Of a stretch of 64,000 nucleotides of DNA, positions 50,396-64,000 are shown one piece after another. The stretch's first letter is position 1. Each line of letters opens with the position of its first letter. The notes under the pieces were generated by a model. It saw only the letters and a program-made list of their open reading frames with translations, ran no database searches and was not told the DNA's origin. This stretch comes from Streptomyces asoensis (GTDB taxonomy: Bacteria > Actinomycetota > Actinomycetes > Streptomycetales > Streptomycetaceae): positions 434,001 through 498,000 of the forward strand of contig NZ_CP049838.1 in the NCBI RefSeq assembly GCF_013085465.1, in the 5' to 3' direction. Position numbers and translations under genes: made by a program.

Positions 50396-51640
50396 TCAGC
50401 CGGTCGTCTCGCTGCCGCCGGTGACCGCGGCGGTCCTGTCCGCCGCCCGGGCCGCGGGTGCGGGGCCGACCGCAGGACTGTTCCGACGGCCGGGGCAGGC
50501 GGCCGCGAGCAGCACGGCCGCAGCGGTCAGTGTCGCCCCGGCCGCGGCCACCGAAGGCAGTGAGCGGCCGTGGGCCAGCAGAAAGCCCCCGAGCCAGCTC
50601 CCGAGCGCGATCCCCACGCAGAAGGCCGAGTTGTTGATGGTCAGGGCCATCGTCGGCGACGTCGTGCCGGCGGTCGTCACGGTCTGGGTGTTGAGCGCCG
50701 GAATCGTGCCGAAGTAGGCGGCTCCGAGGAGGCAGAAGAGGACGGCCACGGCCCATCGGCTGCCGGGCAGCAGGGCGAGCAGCACAAGGCCGGCCGTCGA
50801 CGCGCCCAGGGTGATGAGCACGGCCGCGTACGGGGAGCGGTCGGCTGCCCGGCCGCCCACCGTGTTGCCGACGATGCCGCCCGCGCCGTAGAGCAGAAGC
50901 AGCACGGTGACGGCCTGCGGGCCGAACCCGGCGGCCTGCGTGAGATAGGGCGACGCGTAGGTGTAGAGGGCGAACACCCCTCCGGTGCCGAGCATGATGA
51001 CCAGGGCGACGAGCAGCAGGGGGCCGGGGAGGACGAACGGCCGGGCGGCCCCGGGCACTGTCCGCCGGTCGTCGGGCGTCACCGTTACCGGCGGGGCCTC
51101 GGGCACTGCGCGGCGCATGAGCAGGAGGGTGGCTGCCAGGCTCAGTGCGGCGAGCGCCCAGAAGGTCGCGCGCCAGCCGAAGAGGTTGCCGATCAGAGTG
51201 CCTGCGGGGACGCCGACGACGCTGGACAGACCGATACCGAGAGTGATTTTGGCACCCCATGCGGCCCGTCGGTCGGCGGGCGCCATGTCCCGTGCCGCCG
51301 CCACGAAGGCGGCGATCAGGGTGGAGTGGGCCAGTGCGCTCACCACCCGGCCGACGACCAGCCAGCGGAAGTCCGGGGCGAGTGCGGCCAGCACGTTGCC
51401 GACGATGAACACGGCCATCATGCCCGGCATGAGCAGCGCTCGGCGGAGCCGGCCGGTGGCCGCCGTGAGCAACGGGCCGACGATGACGACCGCGACGGCG
51501 TACACGCTGATCAGCATGCCGACGGAGGTGAGCGAGACGCCGACGTCGTGCCCGATGGCCGGCAGGATGCCGGCGATGACGCTCTCGGCGGTGCCGATGC
51601 AGAAGGTGCAGAGCATCATCGCGAGGACGGGAAGCGGCAT
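50396..51640 (-). CDS. MFS drug/sugar efflux permease (DHA1, AraJ-like)
   Basis: 414 aa, ATG 51640 with CCAAGGAGATCCC. Twelve helices; MLCTFCIGTAESVIAGILPAIGHDVGVSLTSVGMLISVYAVAVVIVGPLL is typical of AraJ/CmlR-type DHA1 exporters, with motif A region TGRLRRALLM and GVPAGTLIGNLFGWRATFW (motif C-like). Possible exporter for the neighbouring cluster. The acyltransferase gene ends 124 bp further upstream on the same strand. Confidence 0.9.
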   Translation of the reverse strand: MPLPVLAMMLCTFCIGTAESVIAGILPAIGHDVGVSLTSVGMLISVYAVAVVIVGPLLTAATGRLRRALLMPGMMAVFIVGNVLAALAPDFRWLVVGRVVSALAHSTLIAAFVAAARDMAPADRRAAWGAKITLGIGLSSVVGVPAGTLIGNLFGWRATFWALAALSLAATLLLMRRAVPEAPPVTVTPDDRRTVPGAARPFVLPGPLLLVALVIMLGTGGVFALYTYASPYLTQAAGFGPQAVTVLLLLYGAGGIVGNTVGGRAADRSPYAAVLITLGASTAGLVLLALLPGSRWAVAVLFCLLGAAYFGTIPALNTQTVTTAGTTSPTMALTINNSAFCVGIALGSWLGGFLLAHGRSLPSVAAAGATLTAAAVLLAAACPGRRNSPAVGPAPAARAADRTAAVTGGSETTG

Positions 51641-51764
51641 GGGATCTCCTTGGTGGCCGTCGCCGCGCGGCGCGGCGCGACCGCCGTTCCGGCACGGGAG
51701 CGATCGCTTCCGTGCCGGACGGGGACGCACCGCGCATCGACGTGTGCGACGGGAACGTGAGGTC

Positions 51765-52970
51765 TCAGGTGGTGCCGATGGTGACGGGCCGGTCGCTGTC
51801 GTCCCGGGGAGAACGCACGGCGGCCGGCGCCTCGGCCGCCCGGGCCGCCCGCGCTCGGCGCGCCCAGGCCCGCACCGCGGGTCGCTCGACGCCGACGTAC
51901 AGCAGCCAGGCCAGCAGCAGGCTCACCGCGGCGACGAGCGCGGCCACGCCGATGGCGGCGGCGAGCGAGTCCGTCTCCCGGAAGCCGAGCCGTTCCTGGG
52001 TGAAGGACAGCAGGACCTGGTGGATCAGGTAGAAGGCGAAGGACACCTCGCCCAGCCACACCCACACGCGTCCGGCCACCGCGGTACCCCGCCCCGACGC
52101 GTCACGTGCCGCCGCGGCGGCGATGAGCAGGGCGAACGGGATCACGACGACCGCGTTCAGTGAGAAGAGGAACGGAACCCGCAGGCTCAGCGCGTACGCC
52201 GCCACCGTGAGCGCCAGCGCGGGCAGCACGCCGAGGCCGATCCACCGGCGGGACAGCACGATCCTGGCCATCAGGATGCCGAGCAGGAAGTCCAGCACCC
52301 GCAGCGGCGGGAAGATGTAGACGAGCCACATCTGGGTGATCGAGTGGCCGTACAGCGGAGAGTTGGCGTGGCTCGGCCCGAACGTCTCCCCGGTGGGCGA
52401 CAGCTGGACGAGCAGCGGCAGCAGCACGATCGCCGTGGCGGTCCCGGCCGCCCACCACCACAGCCGCTCGGCGCGGATCCGCTGCACCGCCCGGTGCAGC
52501 AGCGGGAACAGCAGGTAGAAGACCAGCTCGCAGGAGAGCGACCAACTGGGGTTGTTGACGCTGAAGAACACATCGGCCTTCGGTATCCACGCCTGGAGCA
52601 GCAGGAGGTTGGGGACACCGCGTCCCCAGGTCGCCGAGGCGTAGGCGTACATGGCGAGGGCGAAGAAGAAGGTGACGACATGGTTGGGGTAGACCTTGGC
52701 CAGTCGGCGCCCCCAGAAGGCGCGGGTGGTGTCGTTGTCCCGGGCGGACCAGGCCAGGACGAAGCCGCTGAGGATGAAGAAGAAGGTGACGCCGGCCCAG
52801 CCGCCGTTCTTCAGGGCGGAGGCGAAGGGGCCGTGGCCCTGGCCGGGGGTGGAGTAGGCGTCGAGCAGCGACAGATGGAACAGGAACACCAGGAAGGCGG
52901 CGAAGAACCGCATCCCGGTCAGCGAGGGCAGCCGGGACGAGCGCCCGGGCACGGCGGAGTCAACGGACAC
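51765..52970 (-). CDS. Acyltransferase-3 family membrane O-acyltransferase
   Basis: 401 aa, GTG 52970 with GAGGTGAT upstream. LPSLTGMRFFAAFLVFLFHLSLLD contains the R...H catalytic pattern of acyltransferase-3 (OafA/MdmB-like); GWAGVTFFFILSGFVLAWSARD, RRLAKVYPNHVVTFFFAL and the last FAFYLIHQVLLSF are also diagnostic. About ten helices. Would put acyl groups on a hydroxyl of a secondary metabolite or surface sugar. First tailoring candidate of the cyclitol cluster. Confidence 0.9.
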   Translation of the reverse strand: MSVDSAVPGRSSRLPSLTGMRFFAAFLVFLFHLSLLDAYSTPGQGHGPFASALKNGGWAGVTFFFILSGFVLAWSARDNDTTRAFWGRRLAKVYPNHVVTFFFALAMYAYASATWGRGVPNLLLLQAWIPKADVFFSVNNPSWSLSCELVFYLLFPLLHRAVQRIRAERLWWWAAGTATAIVLLPLLVQLSPTGETFGPSHANSPLYGHSITQMWLVYIFPPLRVLDFLLGILMARIVLSRRWIGLGVLPALALTVAAYALSLRVPFLFSLNAVVVIPFALLIAAAAARDASGRGTAVAGRVWVWLGEVSFAFYLIHQVLLSFTQERLGFRETDSLAAAIGVAALVAAVSLLLAWLLYVGVERPAVRAWARRARAARAAEAPAAVRSPRDDSDRPVTIGTT

Positions 52971-53070
52971 GAGGATCACCTCGAGGTGTGAGGGCGGGAG
53001 GGTGGCAGGGCGGCGGCGGGTGCCAGGGGGGCCGGCGCGGCGGCCTGGTGGCGGCCGCCGGCCGACGTGA

Positions 53071-54735
53071 TCAGGCGGGCCGGATCGACTGGGCGTGCCG
53101 GAACAGTCCGGTGGGGTCCCAGGTGGCCTTGACCTTCTGGAGCCGTCGGTAGCCGTTCTTGTAGTAGAGGTCGTGCCACGGCACGCCGGAGGTGTTCCAT
53201 CGGGGGTCACCGAGGTCGACGTCGGCGTAGTTGACGAAGCAGCCGTCGTTGGTCTCGTTCGGCACCGGCACACCGCCGGTCGCGGCGAACATGTCGCGGT
53301 AGCACTCCCGGACCCAGGTGATGTGGGCGTCGTCGTCCGCCGCGTCGTTCCACAGGGAGACGACCTGGTACTTGAGAACGGAGTCCCGCTGCGGCACGGC
53401 GGTGTCGGCGGAGGCGACACGGTTCACCGCGCCCCCGTACGACGCGATCATGAGCAGCGCGCTCGGGTTGTGGAAGTCGTCGCGGGTCAGGTGGTGGTGG
53501 GCCGCGGCGATCTGGACGTCCGTGTAGGTGCGCCGTGCGTAGACGGACTTGCCCTTGAACCTGACCGTGGGGTCCGGGCCGGTGAAGCCGGGCCACTGGG
53601 TGGCGTGCAGCCAGGGCACCCGCCGGTACTGGCGGACCTGGGGCTGGATGCCGAGACCGGCGCCGACCTCGGATATGTAGTTCTGGAGCAGGCGCTCGGC
53701 GCCGGGAACGCCGGCGTCGATCAGCGAGTCGAGCACCACCGCTCCGTTCGACCTGTGGAACGGCTTGAGCTGGCTGAACAACGCGGTGTACGGGGAGTCG
53801 GGGGCACTGTTGTGGGTGTGCCATTCGCCGTGGTTCCACATCAGACGGCTGAAGCGGGCCTCGGTCAGCTGCTCCCAGGGCCAGGCCACCTCGCTCAGCC
53901 ACACCTCGCGCGGCGGAGTGGGCAACTGTGCGGTCGGATCGTCGCCCCTGGCGTCGTGGGAGCGCAGCCAGTAGCGGGTCACCACGCCGAAGTTGCCGCC
54001 GCCGCCTCCCGTGTGGGCCCACCACAGCTCGCGGTGGGGGTCGTCGGGCTCGCGCGTGGCGGTGACGGCGCGGGCGGTGCCGTCCGCCTGCACGACCACG
54101 ATCTCGATGCCGTACAGGTGGTCGACCGCGAGCCCGTCCCGCCGACTCATGGAGCCGTAGCCCCCGCCCTGGATGTGCCCGCCTGCCGCGACGGTGGGGC
54201 AGTTGCCGGCCGGGAGGTAGACGCCCCAGCCCTTGTAGAGGCGGTCGTAGACCCGGCCGAGGGCGGCGCCGGGCTGCACGGAGAACGCCCGGCGGCGTTC
54301 GTCGTAGGAGATGTCGTCCATGCGGGACAGGTCGAGGACGACCGCGATCTCCTGGTGAGTGGTGAAGTCCTCGTAGCAGTGGCCGCCGCTGCGTACGGCC
54401 AGCCGCCGGCCGGAGTCGACCGCCTGCTGTACGGCCCGTACGACGTCGCCGGTGGAGGTGGCGAGGACGATCTGGTCGGGACTGCCGACCCAGCGCTGGT
54501 TGGTGCCGCGTCGAAGGTCCGCGTAACGCCGGTCCGAGGGACGCACGGTGACGGCGGGCACGGCCGCGGGAGCATCGGCGCGGGCCGTCGCGGCCGCGGT
54601 GGCGGGGCTGATTCCGGCGGCGGTGACGGCGAGGGCGCCGCCCGCGACGGCCGTACCGGACAGGAAGGTCCGCCGGTGCACGGGCTTGCGCACGGTGGTG
54701 GGCGGGCCGGCGGGCGAGGACATGGGTGAAGACAT
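53071..54735 (-). CDS. TAT-exported berberine-bridge-type FAD oxidase
   Basis: 554 aa, ATG 54735 after AAGGAC. Twin-arginine leader: VHRRTFLSGTAVAGGALAVTAAG. FAD_binding_4 domain with bicovalent flavin sites: VRSGGHCYEDF (His) and PAGNCPTVAAGGHIQGGGYG (Cys), then YGIEIVVVQADGTA and WWAHTGGGGGNFGVVTRYWLR. The BBE tail YYKNGYRRLQKVKATWDPTGLFRHAQSI closes the protein. Oxidises alcohols or sugars with O2 outside the cytoplasm. The start region has a repeated MSSP motif. Confidence 0.93.
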   Translation of the reverse strand: MSSPMSSPAGPPTTVRKPVHRRTFLSGTAVAGGALAVTAAGISPATAAATARADAPAAVPAVTVRPSDRRYADLRRGTNQRWVGSPDQIVLATSTGDVVRAVQQAVDSGRRLAVRSGGHCYEDFTTHQEIAVVLDLSRMDDISYDERRRAFSVQPGAALGRVYDRLYKGWGVYLPAGNCPTVAAGGHIQGGGYGSMSRRDGLAVDHLYGIEIVVVQADGTARAVTATREPDDPHRELWWAHTGGGGGNFGVVTRYWLRSHDARGDDPTAQLPTPPREVWLSEVAWPWEQLTEARFSRLMWNHGEWHTHNSAPDSPYTALFSQLKPFHRSNGAVVLDSLIDAGVPGAERLLQNYISEVGAGLGIQPQVRQYRRVPWLHATQWPGFTGPDPTVRFKGKSVYARRTYTDVQIAAAHHHLTRDDFHNPSALLMIASYGGAVNRVASADTAVPQRDSVLKYQVVSLWNDAADDDAHITWVRECYRDMFAATGGVPVPNETNDGCFVNYADVDLGDPRWNTSGVPWHDLYYKNGYRRLQKVKATWDPTGLFRHAQSIRPA

Positions 54736-54833
54736 GGGTGAGTCCTTGGAATGGTGGGACAACGTGTGAGCGGGGGGCGCGCCCGATCGCCGCGGCCGCG
54801 CGGGTGCGCGGGGCGGGGCGCGATCCGGTGGTG

Positions 54834-55598
54834 TCAGCCGGTCGTCGGGGCCTGGGCGCCGACGAGTGTGTCGAGGCGGATGCCGAACCAGTCGAGGATG
54901 CCGACGACGCGGCGGGCCTCCACGAGGTCGAGCGCGGTGGGTCCGGTGACGGCGCGGCGCTCCACGAACGTCCGCAGGGCGGCGGGCGTGAGCGCCACGG
55001 CCGTCCCGGGGAACAGACACTGCTCGGCGTACTCGGCGCCCCGGTCGGGGCCGGCGCAGGGCGCGGTGGACCACAGCAGGTACGGCGCCGGGATGCCGCG
55101 CGCCGATGCGTGGGCCCAGCCCGGGGAACGCAGTTCGCGCCGCAGCATGTCGTACAGGAGGTGGGCTCCGGCGACTCCGGCGCGGAACCGCATGGCCTTG
55201 GCCTCGCAGCCGCCGATCCGGTCGAGGCCGGCGTTGACCAGGGCGTCGACGGCCGGGATGGAGTACTCGACGGCGACCGCGACGGGGCGACCCTGCGGGC
55301 CGGGGGCGGGTGCGGGTGCGGCCGAGGCCTCCGACAGCAGCCCGCGCAGCAGACGTCGGAACTCGGCGGGCCCGTGGACGGGACCGGCGACGACCGTGCC
55401 GTTCGCGGTCAGGTGGCCGGCCGGCGCGCCCTCGGCGGCCGGCGGCAGCACGTCACGGACCGTCTGCGCGGCTTCGGCCCGAGACCGGGCGACCGCCTCC
55501 GGAAGCGTGCGCCGGCAGTCGAGCCAGAGTGTCACGTCGGCCGCCGCTCCGGGCAGCGGCCCGGGCGGACGGGTGGGTAACCTGACGAGCGTTCCCAT
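54834..55598 (-). CDS. Transaldolase-like protein lacking the catalytic core
   Basis: 254 aa, ATG 55598 with AGGGGGAAT. The second half aligns by eye with transaldolases: GVAGAHLLYDMLRRELRSPGWAHASARGIPAPYLLWSTA (compare the AVANARLAY...RPLWASTG region), then EYAEQCLFPGTAVALTPAALRTFVE and LDLVEARRVVGILDWFGIRLDTL. The first half is shortened and I find no NLLVKIPAT-type segment with the Schiff-base Lys. So it is probably not an ordinary transaldolase; it could be a regulator or a repurposed S7P-binding protein. This is an inference from motif wording. Confidence 0.55.
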   Translation of the reverse strand: MGTLVRLPTRPPGPLPGAAADVTLWLDCRRTLPEAVARSRAEAAQTVRDVLPPAAEGAPAGHLTANGTVVAGPVHGPAEFRRLLRGLLSEASAAPAPAPGPQGRPVAVAVEYSIPAVDALVNAGLDRIGGCEAKAMRFRAGVAGAHLLYDMLRRELRSPGWAHASARGIPAPYLLWSTAPCAGPDRGAEYAEQCLFPGTAVALTPAALRTFVERRAVTGPTALDLVEARRVVGILDWFGIRLDTLVGAQAPTTG

Positions 55599-55710
55599 GC
55601 GGATTCCCCCTGGATGGTCGAAAGTCGTAGAGGTGTGCGGCTGTGCCGGTGTGCTCGGCCGGCGCGCCGGACAGAACAGGGCCCGATGCCGAGCAGGAAC
55701 ACGCCTTCGG

Positions 55711-56793
55711 TCAGGGGCGGTCGTGCCAGCGCAGGTCACCGGGTGTCGCGCGGCGCGCCGAGGTCAGCGCCTCGTACGGCAGGGAGCCGTCCGGCATGTT
55801 GATGATCTCCATCTGGATGCCGATCGGGGTGCTGAAGTAGAGCCAGCGGTCGCCGGCGATCGGACCCTGCGTGATCGTCTCCGGCTCGCCCATCAGCGTC
55901 ACGCCCTCCTGCTCGCGCAGATGGGCGGCGGCCGCGTCCACGTCGTCGACGTAGAAGGCCAGATGATGGCCGCCGACGTCGCTGTTGCGCGGGGGCCGCG
56001 ACCGCAGGGCGCCCGTTCCGCTCTGGATCAGTTCACAGTTGGCGGTGGGGCCGGTGCGCAGCAGTGTCCTGCGGGAGTGCTCGGTGCCGGGCGGCCAGTG
56101 CCCGTCCGACCGGTCCGCCGGGTGCTGCGGGCTCTCCACCGGTTCCGCTCCGAGGACGTCCGTGAAGAAGGCGGTGGCGGCGGCGAGATCGGCGACGGTG
56201 TAACTCACGTGCTCCACCCCCAGCAGGCCCAGCGAACGCTCGACGGCGTTGGGGTTGGCGTTGGCGTACGGCGTCTCGGCGGGGACGAAGCCACGGTCGT
56301 CCCGGCGGCCCGGACCGCGCAGCGAGAGCAGCATGCCCCACGGGGTCAGAAACCACCGACGGGTCCCGGCGCGGGCGTCCGACGGGCCGAGGCGGACGGT
56401 GGCCGACCGGCGCAGATGCTCCTCCGCCGTGTCCAGGTCCGCGACCATCAGGGCCAGGTGATGACCGCCCACGTCGTTCGGGCCGGGCGGCGAGGTGATC
56501 TGGCCCGGCGCGGTGTACTCGAAGAGCTCCAGATTGCTGTACGGGCCGAGACGGACCAGGGCGACCTGGGCCCGCGCCCGTGCGTGCACGCCCAGCTTCC
56601 GGGTCATCCAGTCGCCGCCGGGGTCCTCGACCGGCCCCTCCCGGTAACAGAGTTCACCCCCCAGCACGCCGGTGAAGAAGGCGATGGCCTCGTCGAGGTC
56701 CGGGACGGTGAAGGCGTAGTGGTCCACGGCCCGCGCGGTGGGCAGACCGGCGAGCACCGGTGTGGACGAGGCCGCCGTGGATACGTTGAGCAC
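55711..56793 (-). CDS. Double-VOC metalloprotein (CetB-like, putative valiolone epimerase)
   Basis: 360 aa, GTG 56793 with AGGGGGAAT upstream. Two glyoxalase-fold halves: residues about 20-155 (AVDHYAFTVPDLDEAIAFFTGVLGGELCYREG ... NLELFEYTAP ... GGHHLALMVADLDTAEEHL) and 200-345 (GVEHVSYTVADLAAATAFFTDVLGAEPVE ... NCELIQSG ... GGHHLAFYVDDVDAAAAHL ... GIQMEIINMP). Each has the His/His/Glu metal set. In cetoniacytone biosynthesis the VOC enzyme CetB epimerises 2-epi-5-epi-valiolone, and a matching cyclase gene is 1.3 kb away. Heads the minus-strand unit of the cluster. Confidence 0.8.
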   Translation of the reverse strand: MLNVSTAASSTPVLAGLPTARAVDHYAFTVPDLDEAIAFFTGVLGGELCYREGPVEDPGGDWMTRKLGVHARARAQVALVRLGPYSNLELFEYTAPGQITSPPGPNDVGGHHLALMVADLDTAEEHLRRSATVRLGPSDARAGTRRWFLTPWGMLLSLRGPGRRDDRGFVPAETPYANANPNAVERSLGLLGVEHVSYTVADLAAATAFFTDVLGAEPVESPQHPADRSDGHWPPGTEHSRRTLLRTGPTANCELIQSGTGALRSRPPRNSDVGGHHLAFYVDDVDAAAAHLREQEGVTLMGEPETITQGPIAGDRWLYFSTPIGIQMEIINMPDGSLPYEALTSARRATPGDLRWHDRP

Positions 56794-57217
56794 GATTCCC
56801 CCTAGGACGAGTGCGCTCGGTGCTGGGCACCGCGCGGCACACGAATGCTCGGACTCCGGCGCCTGCTCGTGACCAGGTGCCGGACCGATGGCGACAGTAG
56901 GGGAATGTCGTTGCGTGCGCAAGGAACACCTCCCCGCACACAGGTGGGACGTTATGCGATTCACCCCACCCGACCTGCGCCGATGCGGATCGAAGGCGAC
57001 CTGCCGAATGGTCACCGAGTCATGGAGCCATACACCTCCATGTGCAGACATGAAAAAGCCTGCGTACGGGAGGGTTTCCTTGGCTGCTGCCGCCTCGTAC
57101 TCTGGGTACGGCTCGGCTGTCATGGGACGTGACGTGCCTCCCCTCCCCCCGCACGGCGCCCGGAAGGGCTCTACGGCGGCGGGAAGATCCTTCGAGCACC
57201 CTGAAGAAGGCGACATC
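56794..57217. promoter_or_regulatory. Divergent control region of the cyclitol cluster
   Basis: 424 bp between the VOC gene and the MarR gene. Contains the perfect palindrome TTGCGTGCGCAA at 56911-56922. No gene seen. Confidence 0.6.
56911..56922. promoter_or_regulatory. Palindrome TTGCGTGCGCAA, site 1
   Basis: Perfect 12-bp palindrome 118 bp before the VOC start, followed by GGAAC. The same 12-mer followed by TGAAC is at 57898-57909 before the cyclase gene. Candidate MarR operator. Confidence 0.65.
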
Positions 57218-57661
57218 ATGCGAACGCGCAAGGAAGACAGTGTCGAGCTATGGAGTCAACTGTCGGTTCTCGTCGCGGAAGTCGGTACCGCACTGGACAG
57301 GCGACTCTCCGAGGACTTCGAGCTGGGTCTCACCGACTTCCTCTCCCTGCGCGCACTGAGCAACGGTGACCCCGCGGGCATCCGCATGAACGAACTCGCC
57401 CAGCTCCTCGGCCTCAACCAGTCGTCGGCCACCCGTGCCGTCCAGCGCCTGGAGGGCCGCGGGCTGGTCGAGCGGGGGGCCCACGCGACGGACCGCAGAG
57501 GCGTGGTCGTGCGGGTCACGGAGGCCGGCCGGACCATGGTCGCGGACATAGGCAATCTCTTCCGCCGCGAGGTCGGCATGGCGCTGGAAGTCGCGTCCAT
57601 GGACAGCAGGACCAGTTCGGTCGTCGCCAGGCTGCGCTACGCCCCGACCCTCGACCGCTGA
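57218..57661 (+). CDS. MarR-family transcriptional regulator
   Basis: 147 aa, ATG 57218 with GAAGAAGG. Winged HTH: LTDFLSLRALSNGDPAGIRMNELAQLLGLNQSSATRAVQRLEGRGLVERGAHATDRRGVVVRVTEAGRTMV. MarR dimers bind short palindromes; three TTGC-N4-GCAA sites flank this gene, on both the VOC and the cyclase side. Likely the pathway switch, possibly released by an intermediate. Confidence 0.93.
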   Translation: MRTRKEDSVELWSQLSVLVAEVGTALDRRLSEDFELGLTDFLSLRALSNGDPAGIRMNELAQLLGLNQSSATRAVQRLEGRGLVERGAHATDRRGVVVRVTEAGRTMVADIGNLFRREVGMALEVASMDSRTSSVVARLRYAPTLDR

Positions 57662-57679
57662 GCCGTCCGGGCCCATCGC

Positions 57680-57710
57680 GCCCCCTGCCGAACCCCGGCA
57701 GGGGGCTTTT
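57680..57710 (+). terminator. Intrinsic terminator after MarR gene
   Basis: GCCCCCTGCCG-aaccc-CGGCAGGGGGC, a perfect 11-bp stem followed by TTTT. Ends 45 bp before the next inverted repeat. Confidence 0.92.
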
Positions 57711-57754
57711 CGCTGCCCGGCCGCCCGGTCGGCGCGGCCCTGAGCGCCTGATTT

Positions 57755-57909
57755 CTTGCGACAGCAAGCATTGGCTGCATGGTTCCAGCCATCCCGAACG
57801 GTTTCCTGTTCTGGAAAACCCCAGGTAATTACCGGTTTCATCATGGCTCGACAGGCCTCTCCTGGCCGGATACCAACCGAGCGAACCCGAGTAATCCTTG
57901 CGTGCGCAA
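57755..57909. promoter_or_regulatory. Dense inverted-repeat leader of the cyclase operon
   Basis: In order: CTTGC-gaca-GCAAG (57755-57768, a variant of the shared palindrome), TGGCTG...CAGCCA (57772-57791), GGTTTCC-tgttct-GGAAAACC (57800-57820), GGTAATTACC (57824-57833), and the exact TTGCGTGCGCAA (57898-57909). Several regulators or RNA structures may act here. The cyclase ATG is at 58080. Confidence 0.6.
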
Positions 57910-58079
57910 TGAACTCTGTGTCAGGGTCGGTGACGGCGACGGGGGGCAGGCCACGGTGCAGTGGCCGGATCCCGCGCAGGCGGCCCGGAGGGCTTCGCCG
58001 CGCGGATACCAGAACAGACTGCCCCGACCAGATTCGCGACGAACCCGAACCGAGACTCTTCGTCGGAGGCGGAAGCCTG

Positions 58080-59333
58080 ATGCAGCACGAAACGCAGACC
58101 ACACGGAACAACGACGGTCTCTTCGCGGTGGGAAGCCCGGTCACCCACTGGTCGGTCAAGACCAGCAACCCGGTCCAGTACGAGATACGCGCCTGCGAGA
58201 ACCTGCTCGACCCCGAGAACTCCACCATCCTCGAGGACGCCCCGGGCACCGGACGGCGTCGCTTCGTCGTCACCGACCGCGTGGTCGACTCCCTCTACGG
58301 TGAGCGTATCCGCGCCTACTTCGAGCACCACGGTGTCGAGCACCAGGTGCTGGTCCTGGACGACGGCGAGACGCACAAGTCGGTCGGCGCCGTACTGAAG
58401 GTCACCGAGGCCCTCGACGCGTTCGGCGTCGACCGCCGACGTGAACCCGTCATCGCCTTCGGCGGTGGCGTCCTCATGGACATCGTCGGCTTCGCCGCCA
58501 GCCTGTATCGCCGCTCCACGCCGTTCATCCGCATCCCCACCACCCTGATCGGCCTGGTGGACGCGGGAGTCGGCGCCAAGACCGGCGTCAACCACAACGG
58601 GCACAAGAACCGGCTCGGCACCTACTTCCCGGCGGACCGCACGCTGCTCGACCGCTCGTTCCTGGCCACGCTCGACGAACGGCACATCAGCAACGGCCTG
58701 GCCGAGATCCTCAAGATCGCCCTGATCAAGGACGCCCGCCTGTTCGACCTGCTGGAGCAGCACGGCGCCGACGTCCTGCACACCAAGCTTCAGAGCGCGG
58801 CGGCCAGCGGTCCCACCCCGGCCGACGTCCCGGTGGACCAGCGTCTCGCGGCCCGCGGGCTGCACCTCGACCCCGCGACCGAGGTGGTCGAGCGGGCCAT
58901 CCAGGGCATGCTGGAGGAACTCCAGCCCAACCTCTGGGAGAAGGTGCTGGAACGGGTCGTCGACTACGGCCACACCTTCAGCCCGACCATCGAGATGCAT
59001 GCCCTGCCCGCCCTGCTGCACGGCGAAGCCGTGGCCATCGACATGGCTCTGACCACCGTGATGGCCGAGCACCGCGGACTCGTCAGCACCTACCAGCGGG
59101 ACCGCATCCTCGAGGTGATGGCACGGCTCGGCCTGCCGGTCTGGCACCCGCTGTGCACACCGGAGCGGCTCGGCGAGGCTCTGCGGGACACCGTCCGGCA
59201 CCGTGACGGAAAGCAGCGGCTGCCACTGCCCGTCGGCATCGGCAGCGCGGTCTTCGTCAACGACGTCACCGAGGCCGAACTCGGGTCCGCCGCCGAGGCT
59301 CTCGCGGGGCTGGTCGCGGGAGTGTCCCGGTGA
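58080..59333 (+). CDS. Sedoheptulose-7-phosphate cyclase (2-epi-5-epi-valiolone synthase type)
   Basis: 417 aa, ATG 58080 with GGAGGCGGAAG. DHQ-synthase fold: NAD site IAFGGGVLMDIVGFAASLYRRSTPFIRIPTTLIGLVDAGVGAKTGVN, then HKNRLGTYFPADRTLLD as in sugar-phosphate cyclases rather than AroB. Zn ligands E209 (GLAEILK), H298 (VVDYGHTFSPTIE) and H314 (LLHGEAVAID). Turns sedoheptulose 7-phosphate into a valiolone-type cyclitol using NAD+ and a divalent metal. Subclass (EEVS versus EVS or DDGS) is not proven; the CetB-like neighbour favours EEVS. First gene of a coupled three-gene operon. Confidence 0.9.
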   Translation: MQHETQTTRNNDGLFAVGSPVTHWSVKTSNPVQYEIRACENLLDPENSTILEDAPGTGRRRFVVTDRVVDSLYGERIRAYFEHHGVEHQVLVLDDGETHKSVGAVLKVTEALDAFGVDRRREPVIAFGGGVLMDIVGFAASLYRRSTPFIRIPTTLIGLVDAGVGAKTGVNHNGHKNRLGTYFPADRTLLDRSFLATLDERHISNGLAEILKIALIKDARLFDLLEQHGADVLHTKLQSAAASGPTPADVPVDQRLAARGLHLDPATEVVERAIQGMLEELQPNLWEKVLERVVDYGHTFSPTIEMHALPALLHGEAVAIDMALTTVMAEHRGLVSTYQRDRILEVMARLGLPVWHPLCTPERLGEALRDTVRHRDGKQRLPLPVGIGSAVFVNDVTEAELGSAAEALAGLVAGVSR

Positions 59334-60133
59334 CGACCGCCCCCACCGCCCGCCCCGGGGAGGCGGACGTCCGGCCGGCCGGCCCGCCCGACTCCCGCCC
59401 GCACGCCTTCCGTTCGATCGGGACCGTGGCGGGGGCCGCGACGGTGCACGGTGTGCACGGCGCCGCCGGGCGCACGCACTGGAAGTGCTTCGCCGGCCGC
59501 CGTCAGCTCGACTCCCCCACCGAGGCGGTCGAGTGGGCCTCCATCCCCCCGGGCGGACTGAGTGGCGAACACCGCCACACCCGTACCGAGGAGATCTACC
59601 TGATCCTGCAAGGACACGGGGAGTTCCTGTTCAACGGCGTCCCCCATCGCGTCGGACCCGGCTCACTGGCCCTGACCGCGCCCGGAAACGTGCACGGGCT
59701 GCGCAACACGGGGGACACCGACCTCGACTGGTGGGTCGTCGAGACCCTCTCACCCGGCACCGACGCGGTCCTGTCCGGAGCCGATCTCACACCGGGAGTT
59801 CCCGCCATGGGCGACGCAGTGATTTATGACCTCTTCAAGGAGCGCACCGTCTCCACCGACGGCGTCTTCACCGGCCCCTTGCGCCAGATCGAGGCCGTCG
59901 ACCTCGACGCCGGTCAGCGCACCGCCCTGGGCAGGGCCGACGCGGAACTCGCGGTGTTCGTGCACAGCGGCGAGGGCCGGGCCACGGCCGCCGACGGCAC
60001 CGCGGCGGACCTCTCGGCGGACACCTGCGTCACCCTGGGCGCGGACACGCTCACCCGCTTCGAGGCGCGCACTCCGCTGCGGCTGCTGGTCGTCACGCTG
60101 GCCCTGCCCCAGCTGTCCGCGGAGGCGTCGTGA
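59330..60133 (+). CDS. Bicupin protein of the cyclitol operon
   Basis: 267 aa. GTG 59330 overlaps the cyclase stop (GTGA), so translation is coupled. The first cupin carries the metal set GEHRHTRTEEIYLILQGHGEFLFNG (H81, H83, E87 or E88) and PGNVHGL (H122). The second half (FTGPLRQIEAVDLDAGQRTALGRADAELAVFVHSGEGRATA) has the cupin strands without the His ligands. Looks like a phosphosugar isomerase or dioxygenase-type barrel; may process the cyclitol. Confidence 0.8.
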   Translation: MTTAPTARPGEADVRPAGPPDSRPHAFRSIGTVAGAATVHGVHGAAGRTHWKCFAGRRQLDSPTEAVEWASIPPGGLSGEHRHTRTEEIYLILQGHGEFLFNGVPHRVGPGSLALTAPGNVHGLRNTGDTDLDWWVVETLSPGTDAVLSGADLTPGVPAMGDAVIYDLFKERTVSTDGVFTGPLRQIEAVDLDAGQRTALGRADAELAVFVHSGEGRATAADGTAADLSADTCVTLGADTLTRFEARTPLRLLVVTLALPQLSAEAS

Positions 60134-60516
60134 TCATCACCACGACAGGCGAGGCGGTGCGCACGACCATGGACACCGTCTCGGGGGCCGACTGGACGTG
60201 CCTGGTCCGCCGGGGGATGTTGCACAGTGAGTGCGAGTCGGTGGAGCACTGGCTGCTCGCGCCCGCCGCCGTTCTCGCGGCGACCCCGCGGCACGGGGTG
60301 GAGGAGGCCGTCCTGGTGCTCGAGGGTGAGCTCTCCCTGAGCACCACGTCCGGCGAACACAGCGTAAGGGCGGGGCAGTTGGCGCTGCTCCCGCTCGGCT
60401 GCGCGGCACGTCTCACGGCGGGACCCGACCCGGTGCGGCTGATCACCGTGCGAACCCTGGCGGCCGCCGTCACCGACCGGCTGCCGCCGCGCATCCCCGA
60501 GCTGATCCGGTCCTGA
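60130..60516 (+). CDS. Small cupin-fold protein, last gene of the operon
   Basis: 128 aa, GTG 60130 overlapping the previous stop (GTGA). Barrel strands HSECESVEHWLLAPAAVLAATPRHGVEEAVLVLEGELSLSTTSGEHSVRAGQLALLPLGCAARLTAG fit a cupin without a clear HxH metal motif. May be a partner of the bicupin or a ligand sensor. Confidence 0.7.
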   Translation: MIITTTGEAVRTTMDTVSGADWTCLVRRGMLHSECESVEHWLLAPAAVLAATPRHGVEEAVLVLEGELSLSTTSGEHSVRAGQLALLPLGCAARLTAGPDPVRLITVRTLAAAVTDRLPPRIPELIRS

Positions 60517-60521
60517 CCGGC

Positions 60522-60572
60522 TGCTCCCCTGTCCCCCTCCCTCCCCCCTCCTCCCCTCTCCCCCTCGGTCCC
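60522..60572. repeat. Polypyrimidine tract (G-rich on the minus strand)
   Basis: About 50 nt almost entirely C and T, with repeated CCCC/CCCTCC runs. The complementary strand has five or more GGG/GGGG runs within 45 nt, enough for a G-quadruplex. It follows the cyclase operon stop by 6 bp and may affect termination. Confidence 0.7.
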
Positions 60573-60644
60573 TCGCGGCCCCGATCCGGTGGCAATCCGG
60601 ACGGGGCCGCTCCGGTCCGGTCGGCGACCCGGCCGGACCCCGGA

Positions 60645-60685
60645 CCTCGACCTCGAACCTCGAACCTCGAACCTCGAACCTCGAG
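60645..60685. repeat. Heptamer tandem repeat CCTCGAA, about 6 units
   Basis: Perfect CCTCGAA units at 60651, 60658, 60665 and 60672, with diverged CCTCGA and CCTCGAG at the ends. The array ends 12 bp before the ATG at 60698, so it forms the leader. Each unit carries TCGA. Confidence 0.9.
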
Positions 60686-60697
60686 AAAGCGAGCACC

Positions 60698-61615
60698 ATG
60701 CGTGCGGTAGTCCTCACGACATACGGCGGTCCCGAGCAGCTGGAGGTCGCCGACCTCCCGGAACCGGCCGTCCCGGACCCGGACGGCGTTCTCATCCGTA
60801 CCGCTGCGGCCGCCGTCAATCCCGTCGACCTCCAGACCCGCGCCGGTCTGCACAGCGCGCACGGCGCGTTCCACCCGCCGATGGTCCTCGGCTGGGACCT
60901 GGCGGGCACGGTCATCGAAGTGGGCGACCGGGTCACCGGCCTCGGCGTCGGCGACCGGGTGGTGGCGATGTCCGCCCAGATGGCCACCGGCCGTGGGACC
61001 TACGCCGAGACCGTCGCCCTGCCCTCCGGCATCGTGGCCCCCGCACCCGTCTCCGTCCCCCTGACCGCCGCCGCGGGGTTGCCGCTGGCCGGCCTCACCG
61101 CCTGGCAGGCACTCGACGCCCTCGCCCTGCCCGAGGGCGCCACGCTGCTGGTCACCGGTGCCGTCGGCTCGGTCGGCGGGCTCGCGGTGCAGCTCGCCCG
61201 GCTACGCGGGCTGACCGTGGTGGCCCATGTCCGGTCCGTCGAGGACATCGAGCTGGCCCGTGCGCTGGGCGCGGCTCGCGTGGTCGTGGGAGAGGACGCG
61301 TCGGCGCTTCCGGCCGGCGCCGTCGACGGTCTGCTGGAGACGGCGGGTCTGCCGCGGGCCGTCGCCGCGGTGCGGGACGGCGGACGCGTGGTCTCCGTCG
61401 TGCCGACCCGGGTGCCGGAGGCGGAACGGGGTGTCCAGGTGGCCGTCTCGTACGTGGAGCAGGACGGCGAGGGTCTTGCCGCGCTCGGCGCCCTCGTGGA
61501 CCGGGGTGAACTGGAGCTGCGCTCGGCGAAGGAGCTGGGCTTCGAGGAGGCGGGTGAAGCGCACCGCCTCCTCGAAGCCGGCGGCGTGCGGGGCAAGCTC
61601 CTGCTGCTGCCCTGA
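60698..61615 (+). CDS. Zinc-less MDR-family NAD(P)H:quinone oxidoreductase-like enzyme
   Basis: 305 aa. MRAVVLTTYGGPEQLEVADLPEP ... VNPVDLQTRAGLHSAHGAFHPPMVLGWDLAGTVIEVG is the quinone-oxidoreductase GroES-like half; LLVTGAVGSVGGLAVQLARLRG is the cofactor site (AxGxxG-type), pointing to NADPH. Zinc ligands are absent. Could reduce an enone such as a dehydrated cyclitol. Its leader is the heptamer array. Confidence 0.9.
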   Translation: MRAVVLTTYGGPEQLEVADLPEPAVPDPDGVLIRTAAAAVNPVDLQTRAGLHSAHGAFHPPMVLGWDLAGTVIEVGDRVTGLGVGDRVVAMSAQMATGRGTYAETVALPSGIVAPAPVSVPLTAAAGLPLAGLTAWQALDALALPEGATLLVTGAVGSVGGLAVQLARLRGLTVVAHVRSVEDIELARALGAARVVVGEDASALPAGAVDGLLETAGLPRAVAAVRDGGRVVSVVPTRVPEAERGVQVAVSYVEQDGEGLAALGALVDRGELELRSAKELGFEEAGEAHRLLEAGGVRGKLLLLP

Positions 61616-61682
61616 CCGGATGCTCGGCGCCCCCGCCGGGAGGGGCGAGGGCACGGGACCGAAGACCGAGGAAGACGAAGCT

Positions 61683-62180
61683 GTGAGTGAGCCGCACGAC
61701 AGCGACGGCCGTGAGACCGCCACGGAGGACGTCGCCCGGCTGTGGGAACGGGTCGCGACGATGTTCTCGTGGCTGGAGGGACAGCTGGACCGCACCCTGA
61801 CGCGCCGTCACGGTGTGGGTCTGGCCCCGCTGATGACGCTCGGGGTGCTGGTGTGCGAACACCCCGGATCGGTGACGGTCGGAGACGTCGCCCGGCGGCT
61901 GAGCGTCAGCGCTTCGGCGGCGAGCCGGATACTGGCGCAGCTGGAGAGCTCGGGCTGGGCGACCAGGGTGGCCTGGCCCTGCGACCGCAGGATCAGCCGG
62001 ATGGCGGCCACCGAGGCGGGCCGGCGCCTGTGGACCCGGGCCGGTCGGACACTCGACCGCGAACTGGACTTCTCCTTCAGGACGCTGAGGTTCGACGAGC
62101 GGTACGCGCACGTGGTGGCCCGCTTGTGCCGGGCCGAGGACGACAGGCCCGGCCACGCGCGCCACCACGAACCGCCGTAG
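61683..62180 (+). CDS. MarR-family transcriptional regulator
   Basis: 165 aa, GTG 61683 with GAGGAAG. HTH region LMTLGVLVCEHPGSVTVGDVARRLSVSASAASRILAQLESSGWATRVAWPCDRRISRMAATEAGRRLW. Follows the MDR gene by 67 bp on the same strand, so it may be transcribed with it. Distinct from the MarR at 57218. Confidence 0.85.
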   Translation: MSEPHDSDGRETATEDVARLWERVATMFSWLEGQLDRTLTRRHGVGLAPLMTLGVLVCEHPGSVTVGDVARRLSVSASAASRILAQLESSGWATRVAWPCDRRISRMAATEAGRRLWTRAGRTLDRELDFSFRTLRFDERYAHVVARLCRAEDDRPGHARHHEPP

Positions 62181-62216
62181 CGGGCCACGCATGCGACGGG
62201 GCTCGCCGTCGGCGTC

Positions 62217-62825
62217 TCAGGAGGCCGGCTCCGGCCAGATGGCCATGGCGAACTCGGCCACCTGCTGAAGCTCCGCGGTGCTGGCGCCGTCCCGGGCCTG
62301 CTGGGACATGCCCTGGACGACCGCGGCGAAGTACACGGCCAGGGCCCGCGTGTCCGTTCCCTCGGGGAGCGCACCGCCGGCCCTGGCCGCGTTCAGTCGC
62401 TCCTCGAAGGACCGCACGTTCGCCACCCGGCGCTCGCGCAGATCCTCCTTGATGTCGGCCGTCTGGGTGGAGTAGTTGGTCGCCGCGGTGATCACCAGAC
62501 ACCCCGCGGGGTGGTGCGGGTCCGTGTAGGACACCGCCGCCGCCTCCAGCATGTCGGCGAACCCCGTGCGCGTGTCGCTCGCGTCGTCGAGCGCCTTGTT
62601 CATGAACGCGCCGAACGTGTCGCCGTAGCGGTCGACGACCTCGACGAAGAGCGTGCGCTTGTCCCCGAACGCCGCGTACAGGCTCGGCGGCGAGATCCCC
62701 ATGGCGGCGGTCAGGTCGGAGACGGACGTGCCCTCGTAGCCGTGCTGCCAGAAGAGCAGCGTGGCCTGGACGAGTGCCGCGTCCCGGTCGAAACTCCGCG
62801 GTCGCCCGCGCTTCGTCGTCGTCAT
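62217..62825 (-). CDS. TetR-family transcriptional regulator
   Basis: 202 aa. HTH: RPRSFDRDAALVQATLLFWQHGYEGTSVSDLTAAMGISPPSLYAAFGDKRTLFVEVVDRYGDTF. The ligand domain includes HPAGCLVITAATNYSTQTADI, similar to the AcrR/TetR_C_16-like group that controls divergent short-chain dehydrogenases. Divergent from the SDR gene 87 bp away. Confidence 0.93.
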   Translation of the reverse strand: MTTTKRGRPRSFDRDAALVQATLLFWQHGYEGTSVSDLTAAMGISPPSLYAAFGDKRTLFVEVVDRYGDTFGAFMNKALDDASDTRTGFADMLEAAAVSYTDPHHPAGCLVITAATNYSTQTADIKEDLRERRVANVRSFEERLNAARAGGALPEGTDTRALAVYFAAVVQGMSQQARDGASTAELQQVAEFAMAIWPEPAS

Positions 62826-62842
62826 GAACGAATTTTACAACG

Positions 62843-62894
62843 ATCGCTACGGAATTCGTGCTACAGTCAAAACGTAGTCATCGCTACAGAATTC
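62843..62894. promoter_or_regulatory. Direct-repeat operator between TetR and SDR genes
   Basis: ATCGCTACGGAATTC (62843-62857) and ATCGCTACAGAATTC (62880-62894) match in 14 of 15 positions, 37 bp apart. CTAC-N9-GTAG (62861-62877) lies between. Strong candidate for the TetR binding sites. Confidence 0.7.
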
Positions 62895-62912
62895 CGATGC
62901 AGAGGGAAGGTC

Positions 62913-63680
62913 ATGGGAACGCTGACGGGTAAGAAGGCCTTGGTGACGGGCGGCAGCCGGGGGATCGGACGCGCGATCGCCGAGCGGCTCGGGCGGGACG
63001 GGGCGCTCGTGGCCGTCCACTACGGCCGCAACCAGGCGGCCGCCGACGAGGTGGTCGCCGGTATCCGCGCACAGGGCGGTGCCGCGTTCGCGGTCCACGC
63101 CGAGCTGGGCGTCGCCGGGGATGTGGAGACCCTCTGGGCGGCCTACGACCGCCAGGCCCTGGAGCACTCCGACGGCGCCGACCTCGACATCCTGGTCAAC
63201 AACGCGGGCATCACACCGCGCGGCGAGATCGAGGAGACCACCGTCGAGGCGTTCGACGAGGCCGTCGCGGTCAACATGCGCGCACCGTTCTTCCTCGCCC
63301 AGCAGGGGCTCAAGCGCCTGCGAAACGGCGGCCGGATCATCAACATCTCCTCCGGTGCGACCCGGATCGCGCTCACCGACATCATCGCCTACGCCATGAC
63401 CAAGGGGGCCATCGAAGCCTTCACCCTGACCCTCGCCAAGTCGCTCGGCGGTCGCGGCATCACGGTCAACTCGGTGGCCCCCGGCATCATCGACACCGAC
63501 ATCAACGCCTCCTGGCTGCGGGGCAACGAGGCCGCCGAGCAGTCGGCCGCCGAACTCTCCGCCCTCGGCCGCGTGGGACGCCCCGAGGACGTCGCCGACG
63601 TGGTCGCCTTCCTCGCCTCCGACGACGGGCGCTGGGTGACCGGCCAGGTCGTCGACGCCACCGGCGGTTCCCAGCTCTGA
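62913..63680 (+). CDS. Short-chain dehydrogenase/reductase
   Basis: 255 aa, ATG 62913 with AGAGGGAAGG. Cofactor site TGGSRGIG (12-19), NNAG (96-99), catalytic Ser in INISSGA (146-147), Y160 and K164 (YAMTK). NSVAPGIIDTDIN and the end WVTGQVVDATGGSQL are classical for 3-oxoacyl-ACP-reductase-like SDRs. Possibly tailors the cyclitol, though TetR/SDR pairs are common by themselves. Confidence 0.95.
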   Translation: MGTLTGKKALVTGGSRGIGRAIAERLGRDGALVAVHYGRNQAAADEVVAGIRAQGGAAFAVHAELGVAGDVETLWAAYDRQALEHSDGADLDILVNNAGITPRGEIEETTVEAFDEAVAVNMRAPFFLAQQGLKRLRNGGRIINISSGATRIALTDIIAYAMTKGAIEAFTLTLAKSLGGRGITVNSVAPGIIDTDINASWLRGNEAAEQSAAELSALGRVGRPEDVADVVAFLASDDGRWVTGQVVDATGGSQL

Positions 63681-63787
63681 CCCGGTGACCGGCCGGGTGC
63701 CCACCCGGCCGGAACCGGAGCCTGCACGGGTGTCAACGGGGACACCGTGACATCGCGCACGACAGACACTCTGTACAGGGAGGCCCC

Positions 63788-64000
63788 ATGCACGTCGTCA
63801 TCGCCTGGTGGGACGGGACACGAGGTGCCGTATCCGGCACCGCCCGGACGGACCGGTCCGGAGAGGCCGGCTTCGGTCCGGGGGCCGCGGCCTCGTTCGC
63901 CGGCGAGTACCCCGGCCTGAGGGACGGTCAGTGGATCGACGAACCCGTGGCGGGCTGGGAGGGGCTGGCGCTGATCTGGGACTGCGCGGACAGCGCCGAC
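63788..64000 (+). CDS. Partial gene at the right edge
   Basis: ATG 63788 with GGGAGG upstream; 71 codons before the window ends (MHVVIAWWDGTRGAVSG ... FAGEYPGLRDGQWIDEPVAGWEGLALIWDCA). No family recognised from this part. Same strand as the SDR gene, 107 bp away, so perhaps co-transcribed. Confidence 0.6.
   Translation, partial: MHVVIAWWDGTRGAVSGTARTDRSGEAGFGPGAAASFAGEYPGLRDGQWIDEPVAGWEGLALIWDCADSAD

Follow-up and report, generated by a model that had tools for sequence, protein, structure and literature searches.

Gene clusters that depend on a 2-epi-5-epi-valiolone synthase (EEVS) are best known as sources of glycosidase inhibitors that contain nitrogen. Rancinamycins are acylated C7 cyclitols from Streptomyces. 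The validamycin locus of Streptomyces hygroscopicus NBRC 13472 (L133; L numbers denote EEVS loci), the cyclase of which is 86% identical to ValA, carries an EEVS and a double-length VOC protein together with a class III aminotransferase, a pseudoglycosyltransferase (VldE, 1047 bits) and an ROK kinase. In the acarbose pathway, which likewise starts from an EEVS (AcbC), AcbM phosphorylates, AcbO isomerizes and AcbL dehydrates to give valienone 7-phosphate, as set out in PMC7081202. COTC is described in PMC2635666 as an acylated, oxidized, nitrogen-free C7 cyclitol from Streptomyces, and the reference list of that paper dates its report to 1975; no gene cluster for gabosines, COTC or rancinamycins surfaced in the literature we searched. 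Here we describe a 13.7-kb block of genes (50396-64141) at the right end of a stretch of 64,000 nucleotides (hereafter the window), bases 434001-498000 of the 10.04-Mb single-contig genome of Streptomyces asoensis (NZ_CP049838.1). We put the probability at roughly 0.6 that this block is a complete, co-regulated cluster for a nitrogen-free, acylated C7 cyclitol that would be activated outside the cell. The cluster is a variant among EEVS-dependent C7-cyclitol clusters, an already known kind. It shares with the validamycin locus the EEVS and the double-length VOC protein, but cupins, an acyltransferase and a probably secreted oxidase are present, and no counterpart of the aminotransferase, pseudoglycosyltransferase or kinase was found. 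BE-40644 is also EEVS-derived, and a prenyltransferase is used in its case, according to PMC5133447; none was assigned in the block, for which no dedicated prenyltransferase search was made.

The cyclase gene (58080-59333, plus strand, 417 amino acids) had been called a sedoheptulose-7-phosphate cyclase in an earlier note made from the letters of the window, and this call is borne out by our comparisons. Both domains are present (DHQ_synthase, E = 3.7e-33; DHQS_C, E = 1.3e-25), and, among solved structures, the protein scored highest with ValA, the validamycin EEVS (4P53, 434 bits; 55.7% identity over 384 amino acids), followed by 5TPR (256 bits; labeled 3-dehydroquinate synthase in the database, which we take to be DDGS), with the other listed dehydroquinate synthases reaching at most 156 bits. 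In the alignment columns of ValA L267, D281 and H360, which we take to be ValA-type active-site positions, the cyclase has L, D and H and 5TPR has E, A and T. Across our locus set, which comprises the best 80 named of 261 confirmed EEVS loci, these columns hold L in 80, D in 80 and H in 79. The existence of fingerprint sites for sedoheptulose-7-phosphate cyclases is described in PMC4426668. Further, in a tree, a branch with 100/100 support sets the cyclase and ValA apart from three proteins of the S. asoensis genome that resemble dehydroquinate synthases; this is an unrooted split in a tree with an uncertain root, long branches and no amino-dehydroquinate synthase reference. A grouping with AroB-like proteins, named beforehand as speaking against the call, was not found against these three proteins, and AroB identity was rejected on the structure scores, the tree and the ValA-type residues. 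The sequences therefore support an EEVS-type cyclase predicted to form 2-epi-5-epi-valiolone from sedoheptulose 7-phosphate. Among 392 genomes of the genus, which we used for all genus-wide distributions, 50 have an EEVS match at E <= 1e-60, and the closest catalogued cyclase, among the best 8000 candidates scored in the protein catalogue, is a Streptomyces protein with 97% identity. Three further dehydroquinate-synthase-like genes lie at 9706506, 8606021 and 1341509 of the S. asoensis genome, and one above the aroB cut-off lies at 2110084.

To define the borders of the block, 44 kb (40001-84000, window plus right flank) were compared with the clade loci, counting shared pieces of at least 250 bp. 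DNA shared across the clade begins at 50505-50864 and ends at 64065-64144; outside these borders, only the near-identical L057 has DNA in common with the window, and the other eight of nine named clade members (L057-L064 and L067) have flanks unlike those of the window. As the flanks compared amount to a few kb per side, with a contig end nearby in L040 and L062, we say that the surroundings of the block probably differ between species. Since the block is kept in the nine named relatives closest to the cyclase, and only one of them has similar flanks over the part compared, it is one unit. The clade order is MFS, acyltransferase, oxidase, transaldolase-like, VOC, MarR, EEVS, bicupin, cupin, MDR, TetR and SDR, with two exceptions: L058 (S. 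humi) has no transaldolase-like gene, and L059 has no MDR gene. All the neighbors that the earlier note had listed, i.e. the MFS, acyltransferase-3, VOC, bicupin, small cupin, MDR, FAD/BBE oxidase, SDR, TetR, two MarR and transaldolase-like genes, are present. It had also regarded the right side as cut off, and the last gene does cross the window edge; only 141 bases are lost, however, and the block ends at about 64065-64144.

The same note had reported aminotransferase, cyclitol kinase and nucleotidyl- or glycosyltransferase genes of the acarbose/validamycin type as missing. We used queries taken from L133 and L127, the families of which were verified (class III and DegT aminotransferase, ROK kinase and VldE; thus two kinds of aminotransferase), and found no match at E <= 1e-3 in the window and the 45 kb to its right, which upholds the claim for these families. 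Whether the neighbors follow the cyclase or exist without it has a divided answer. The bicupin and the transaldolase-like gene stay with EEVS: all 19 strong bicupin matches adjoin it, and the transaldolase-like gene always stands at an EEVS locus. The acyltransferase and SDR families, by contrast, also occur elsewhere.

The core of the block recurs well beyond the clade. In Lentzea, Arthrobacter, Paenarthrobacter, Cellulomonas and Roseibium, we found a compact run of a divergent TetR gene, SDR, VOC, oxidase, acyltransferase, EEVS, bicupin and cupin genes. The VOC protein of the Arthrobacter type, as seen in L098, L110 and L129, is a diverged double VOC; no VOC was seen in the run of Roseibium L121, and L111, on a short contig, begins within the run. 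Counting a gene as present in the 80 loci when tblastn gave E <= 1e-10 with 35% query coverage, we obtained bicupin in 57, small cupin in 53, VOC in at least 50 (a lower bound, since Arthrobacter-type VOCs fall under the threshold), oxidase in 33, acyltransferase in 32, ROK kinase in 20 and DegT in 7; Fisher tests on such co-occurrence ignore the relatedness of the loci. Bicupin, acyltransferase and oxidase stand together in 23 of the 80 loci, spread over seven cyclase groups at 75% identity, and none of these 23 matches either aminotransferase query or the ROK kinase or pseudoglycosyltransferase (ValL/VldE-type) queries. This is a further build of EEVS cluster, separable by gene content and found in several actinobacterial families and one alphaproteobacterium. 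Seven loci with DegT and GMC genes (L091, L092, L114, L115, L118, L127 and L128), which we presume to be cetoniacytone-type, share with the window EEVS, VOC, a mostly partial bicupin and the small cupin; unlike the window, they give no acyltransferase-3 match, and the VOC protein is of single length in the three that we aligned. Conversely, DegT was found neither in the window nor in the 45 kb to its right, and no GMC oxidoreductase was found in the nine named window-clade loci. In genome surveys, loci in three species of our set, L. flava, L. aerocolonigenes and L. nigeriaca, are given as 9% similar to cetoniacytone (PMC9120177), and an Arthrobacter locus is likewise reported as cetoniacytone-similar (PMC9228311); these are likely the same loci as those seen here. 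As separate observations, L074, L075, L077 and L084 combine EEVS, kinase, adjoining MDR, acyltransferase and oxidase genes without cupins, i.e. the same tailoring pair on another core, and Streptomyces olivoreticuli ATCC 31159 has two differently built EEVS loci (L069 and L075) on one chromosome.

Directly behind the cyclase gene lie those for a bicupin (59330-60133, plus strand; PF07883, E = 3.3e-19) of an EEVS-linked family and for a small cupin, its presumptive partner (60130-60516, plus strand; PF07883, E = 3.9e-5, at 23.7 bits below the cut-off of 27.2 and assigned by alignment). In the 392 genomes, the bicupin gave 21 matches at E <= 1e-15. All 19 at E <= 1e-31 directly adjoin EEVS, and the two weakest (genomes G081 and G071, about 1e-16) lie away from it. 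The first cupin domain of the bicupin has a complete metal site, and all 45 sequences compared share H81, H83, E87, E88 and H122; in the small cupin, the metal histidines are absent from the alignment. We note that bicupin and kinase hardly ever occur together: an ROK kinase was found in 2 of the 57 loci with bicupin versus 18 of the 23 without, and the MDR gene that usually adjoins the kinase, which we take as the AcbL counterpart, in 1 of 57 versus 17 of 23. As the bicupin nearly excludes the kinase and its MDR neighbor, we infer that the cupin pair replaces the phosphate route. C2 isomerization and dehydration to an enone are expected for the window as for acarbose; in acarbose biosynthesis (PMC7081202), AcbM phosphorylates and AcbL dehydrates the phosphate, whereas the build of the window has cupins, and neither a kinase nor the MDR gene usually adjoining it was found in this build. 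We know of no reaction that has been assigned to an EEVS-linked cupin pair.

The VOC gene (55711-56790, minus strand; PF00903, E = 1.6e-20, in two stretches) encodes a double VOC protein that we propose to be a 2-epi-5-epi-valiolone epimerase of the ValD/CetB type. The earlier note had likened this double-VOC neighbor of the cyclase to CetB, to which a correction on length applies: the protein is of double length, as is its counterpart in the validamycin locus L133 (45.5% identity over 378 amino acids), and the VOC of the aminotransferase-bearing L127 is of single length (48% over 179 amino acids). In the C-terminal half, the residues H, E, H and E are kept, as judged by eye. Weak matches to glyoxalase and Fos-type resistance models raise the alternative that the protein is a glyoxalase-like self-resistance factor against the producer's own electrophile. 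We consider this unlikely, given the full-length alignment with the validamycin-locus VOC, the joint occurrence of VOC and bicupin in at least 48 of the 57 bicupin loci, and the title of a paper in the reference list of PMC12041759, in which ValD is called both an epimerase and a large protein of the VOC type.

The gene at 53071-54735 (minus strand) encodes a BBE-type oxidase (PF01565 and PF08031) with bicovalent flavin adenine dinucleotide (FAD), as judged from its attachment residues, a histidine (SGGHCYE) and a cysteine (GNCPTV). A twin-arginine (Tat) motif, HRRTFLSG, stands at its N terminus (TIGR01409, 18.6 bits; cut-off, 16.7). Its nearest solved relatives are TamL (7.2e-177), CrmK, AknOx and 2WDW, which is listed as a hexose oxidase and which we presume to be Dbv29. 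When the window protein and 32 relatives were aligned, the histidine was found in 33 of 33 and the cysteine in 32 of 33, the exception being L099 with Ile, and both residues are kept in all 23 loci of the bicupin/acyltransferase/oxidase build. We had considered that the oxidases of kinase- or aminotransferase-type loci might lack the FAD cysteine, which the alignment rules out. By eye, the twin-arginine N terminus is present in 31 of 33 extracted relatives; of the remaining two, L122 is a fragment and L073 has a misplaced start. The S. asoensis genome has no second relative of the oxidase at E <= 1e-60. In PMC11375781 and PMC10054333, the Tat-exported SfmCy2 and NapU are described as maturing prodrugs outside the cell, and AknOx as carrying out a double oxidation with formation of an unsaturated ketone. 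AknOx, TamL, NapU and SfmCy2, which are secreted, bicovalent or both, resemble the window oxidase in BBE family, FAD histidine and cysteine and Tat signal, but their substrates are anthracycline sugars, tirandamycin or alkaloids. Because a Tat signal was read in 31 of 33 relatives of this AknOx/TamL-type oxidase, the last oxidation would probably take place outside the cell. A C7 cyclitol as substrate of such an oxidase would, to our knowledge, be new.

Two copies of the palindrome TTGCGTGCGCAA are placed so that they could serve as a common switch. One (56911-56922) lies between the divergent VOC gene and the gene of a MarR-type regulator (57218-57661, plus strand; PF12802, E = 6e-13), the proposed cluster regulator, and the other (57898-57909) lies about 180 bp ahead of the cyclase gene. 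These are the only two exact copies in the 10.04-Mb genome. In the clade, both sites are kept within one mismatch in eight of nine members, L058 has one site with one mismatch, and the central pair varies. It is this position and conservation, not the count, that make the case for an operator, and the arrangement would suit one putative MarR operator controlling the EEVS unit as well as the VOC unit divergent from it. By eye, the MarR gene is followed by a hairpin that bears a short run of T. Another palindrome, GGTGTCAACGGGGACACC, at 63729-63746 between the SDR gene and the last gene, is kept in several clade loci; this GGTGTC palindrome was rejected as a repeated cluster operator, as the window holds a single exact copy.

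Taken together, these data lead us to propose the following course. EEVS would convert sedoheptulose 7-phosphate to 2-epi-5-epi-valiolone, a step supported by sequence, and the double VOC protein would, by homology, invert C2 to give 5-epi-valiolone. The metal-bearing bicupin with its metal-free partner may then dehydrate the unphosphorylated ketone to valienone, in place of the kinase/AcbL-type route. An SDR (62913-63680, plus strand; PF13561, E = 6.6e-52), which stands in the compact core run, would reduce valienone to an allylic alcohol inert to the cell's own thiols. A membrane acyltransferase-3 (51765-52970, minus strand; PF01757, E = 1.5e-31) would esterify this alcohol with an acyl-CoA, and an MFS pump of the drug-efflux type (50396-51640, minus strand; PF07690, E = 2.8e-45; NF033135, 260 bits, below the cut-off of 400), encoded inside the conserved block, would export the ester. 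Outside the cell, as homology and the Tat signal suggest, the secreted oxidase could turn the allylic alcohol into an enone or the primary alcohol into an aldehyde, and the reactive compound would arise where the producer is unharmed. The MarR regulator, bound at the two TTGCGTGCGCAA copies, would switch both transcription units jointly. The chemical prediction is thus an ester, no nitrogen and a late extracellular oxidation. At odds a little under even, we further suggest that the block represents a widespread kinase-free, nitrogen-free C7 branch, in which a cupin pair dehydrates and a harmless acylated allylic alcohol is made an electrophile outside the cell by a Tat-secreted bicovalent oxidase; this branch may be the missing genetic origin of the COTC/gabosine-type glyoxalase inhibitors. 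Three questions become testable in this way: the cupin reaction, the extracellular activation of a C7 cyclitol and the source of acylated C7 enones such as COTC.

Several observations weigh against this proposal. For the cupins, a role as dehydratase is read only from the mutual exclusion of genes, the second cupin lacks metal histidines, and the pair could isomerize or epimerize instead. That acylation, export and oxidation follow in this sequence is a proposal only, and the MFS query gave no match in the Arthrobacter-type loci. Of the tailoring enzymes, the acyltransferase-3 family is present in 157 of the 392 genomes, and SDR relatives with 78-83% identity occur in four genomes without an EEVS match (G391, G365, G185 and G080). 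The aminotransferase-bearing L118 and L127 also have a Tat oxidase with histidine and cysteine kept, and the oxidase alone is therefore no marker of nitrogen-free products. As for regulation, the relaxed pattern TTGCGNNCGCAA has three sites in the genome (two of them the TTGCGTGCGCAA pair) versus two for a reversed control, so that the count alone is not rare, and two near-matches of TTGCGTGCGCAA were also reached in 6 of 100 shuffled versions of the window.

How new the product would be is a separate matter. The earlier note had raised the possibility of a new oxidized and acylated non-amino cyclitol; the non-amino part is supported, with none of the 23 loci matching the aminotransferase, kinase or pseudoglycosyltransferase queries, but the newness is less certain, as such compounds, COTC among them, are already known from Streptomyces. 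COTC, gabosines and rancinamycins are, like the predicted product, oxidized nitrogen-free C7 cyclitols, and COTC has an acyl ester (PMC2635666), although the stereochemistry may differ. An acyltransferase, an oxidase and an EEVS, with no nitrogen genes found, suit a COTC-like molecule, and it is quite conceivable, if somewhat short of an even bet, that the cluster makes a member of this known class and is new only as a gene assignment. However, by stereochemistry worked out by hand, COTC (4R,5R,6R), with all three hydroxyls cis, corresponds to non-epimerized 2-epi-5-epi-valiolone oxidized at C4, whereas the proposed VOC epimerase would invert C2 and lead to a diastereomer differing from COTC. 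We also know of no producer of such compounds among the strains of our locus list, and neither a product assignment for the cluster nor a published cluster of this kind was found in the literature searched.

That the product is instead a C7 aminocyclitol, with the aminotransferase and other genes elsewhere in the genome, has in its favor that aminotransferase-bearing loci, too, possess EEVS, VOC and the cupin pair and that aminotransferases abound in Streptomyces genomes; we regard it as improbable, since the aminotransferase (class III and DegT), kinase and pseudoglycosyltransferase queries went unmatched in the 23 loci of seven cyclase groups as well as in the window and its right flank. Least credible is a chance placement of the cyclase among unrelated genes with no joint pathway, which synteny already contradicts. 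The SDR and the acyltransferase do come from large families seen elsewhere, but the same block stands in nine named relatives, compact runs occur in other genera and a proteobacterium, and the genome holds no further exact copy of the two palindromes. The reading that we retain is a kinase-free route to a nitrogen-free, acylated C7 cyclitol of COTC/gabosine/rancinamycin-like kind that would be activated extracellularly.

The remaining genes of the block are as follows. The transaldolase-like gene (54834-55598, minus strand) encodes a protein that the earlier note had taken for transaldolase-like, and the fold is indeed matched (NF002881, E = 2.6e-8), with no transaldolase assignment by Pfam; the lysine-bearing segment, however, is absent from the window protein and eight clade relatives. 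The segment, in which we presume the catalytic lysine to lie, reads KIPAT in L065 and has Arg in L066 and L073. The gene was found in 5 of 392 genomes, and its ratio of nonsynonymous to synonymous substitution rates (dN/dS) is 0.45-0.69, as against 0.12-0.19 for the cyclase. By sequence, it is a truncated, weakly constrained pseudo-enzyme. An ordinary transaldolase supplying sedoheptulose 7-phosphate was rejected in view of the missing catalytic segment, the absence of the gene from S. humi L058 and the high dN/dS. Beside EEVS, the gene shows a gradient of decay, from longer forms with Lys or Arg (L065, L066 and L073) through the short form of the window clade to none in S. humi L058.

Further, an MDR oxidoreductase resembling quinone reductases (60698-61615, plus strand; PF08240, E = 1.4e-17) is dispensable, and an essential role for it was rejected in view of the block of L059, which is without it. 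A second MarR-type regulator (61683-62180, plus strand; PF12802, E = 6e-10) precedes a TetR-type regulator (62217-62825, minus strand; PF00440, E = 5.8e-12) that is divergent from the SDR gene. The intergenic region between the TetR and SDR genes (62826-62912) is AT-rich and contains a repeated CGCTAC(G/A)GAATTC, a possible TetR operator. The SDR of the compact runs in other genera is 58-66% identical to that of the window. The last gene of the block, an open reading frame for 117 amino acids (MHVVIAWWDG...), lies on the plus strand at 63788-64141, past the window end at 64000 (L004:14789-15142); it has no Pfam match at E up to 1, and its DNA is kept in nine of nine named clade members. Compared by eye with relatives, the open reading frames 51765-53420, 53071-55074 and 55711-57231 begin too far upstream, and likelier starts are 52970, 54735 and 56790. 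The six closest copies of the acyltransferase (>= 77% identity) are exactly those of the six window-clade EEVS loci in the 392-genome set. In the S. asoensis genome itself, two acyltransferase-3 copies of equal score, at 97838-98986 and 9945315-9946463, are mirrored near the contig ends, an arrangement that points to terminal inverted repeats at least about 98 kb long.

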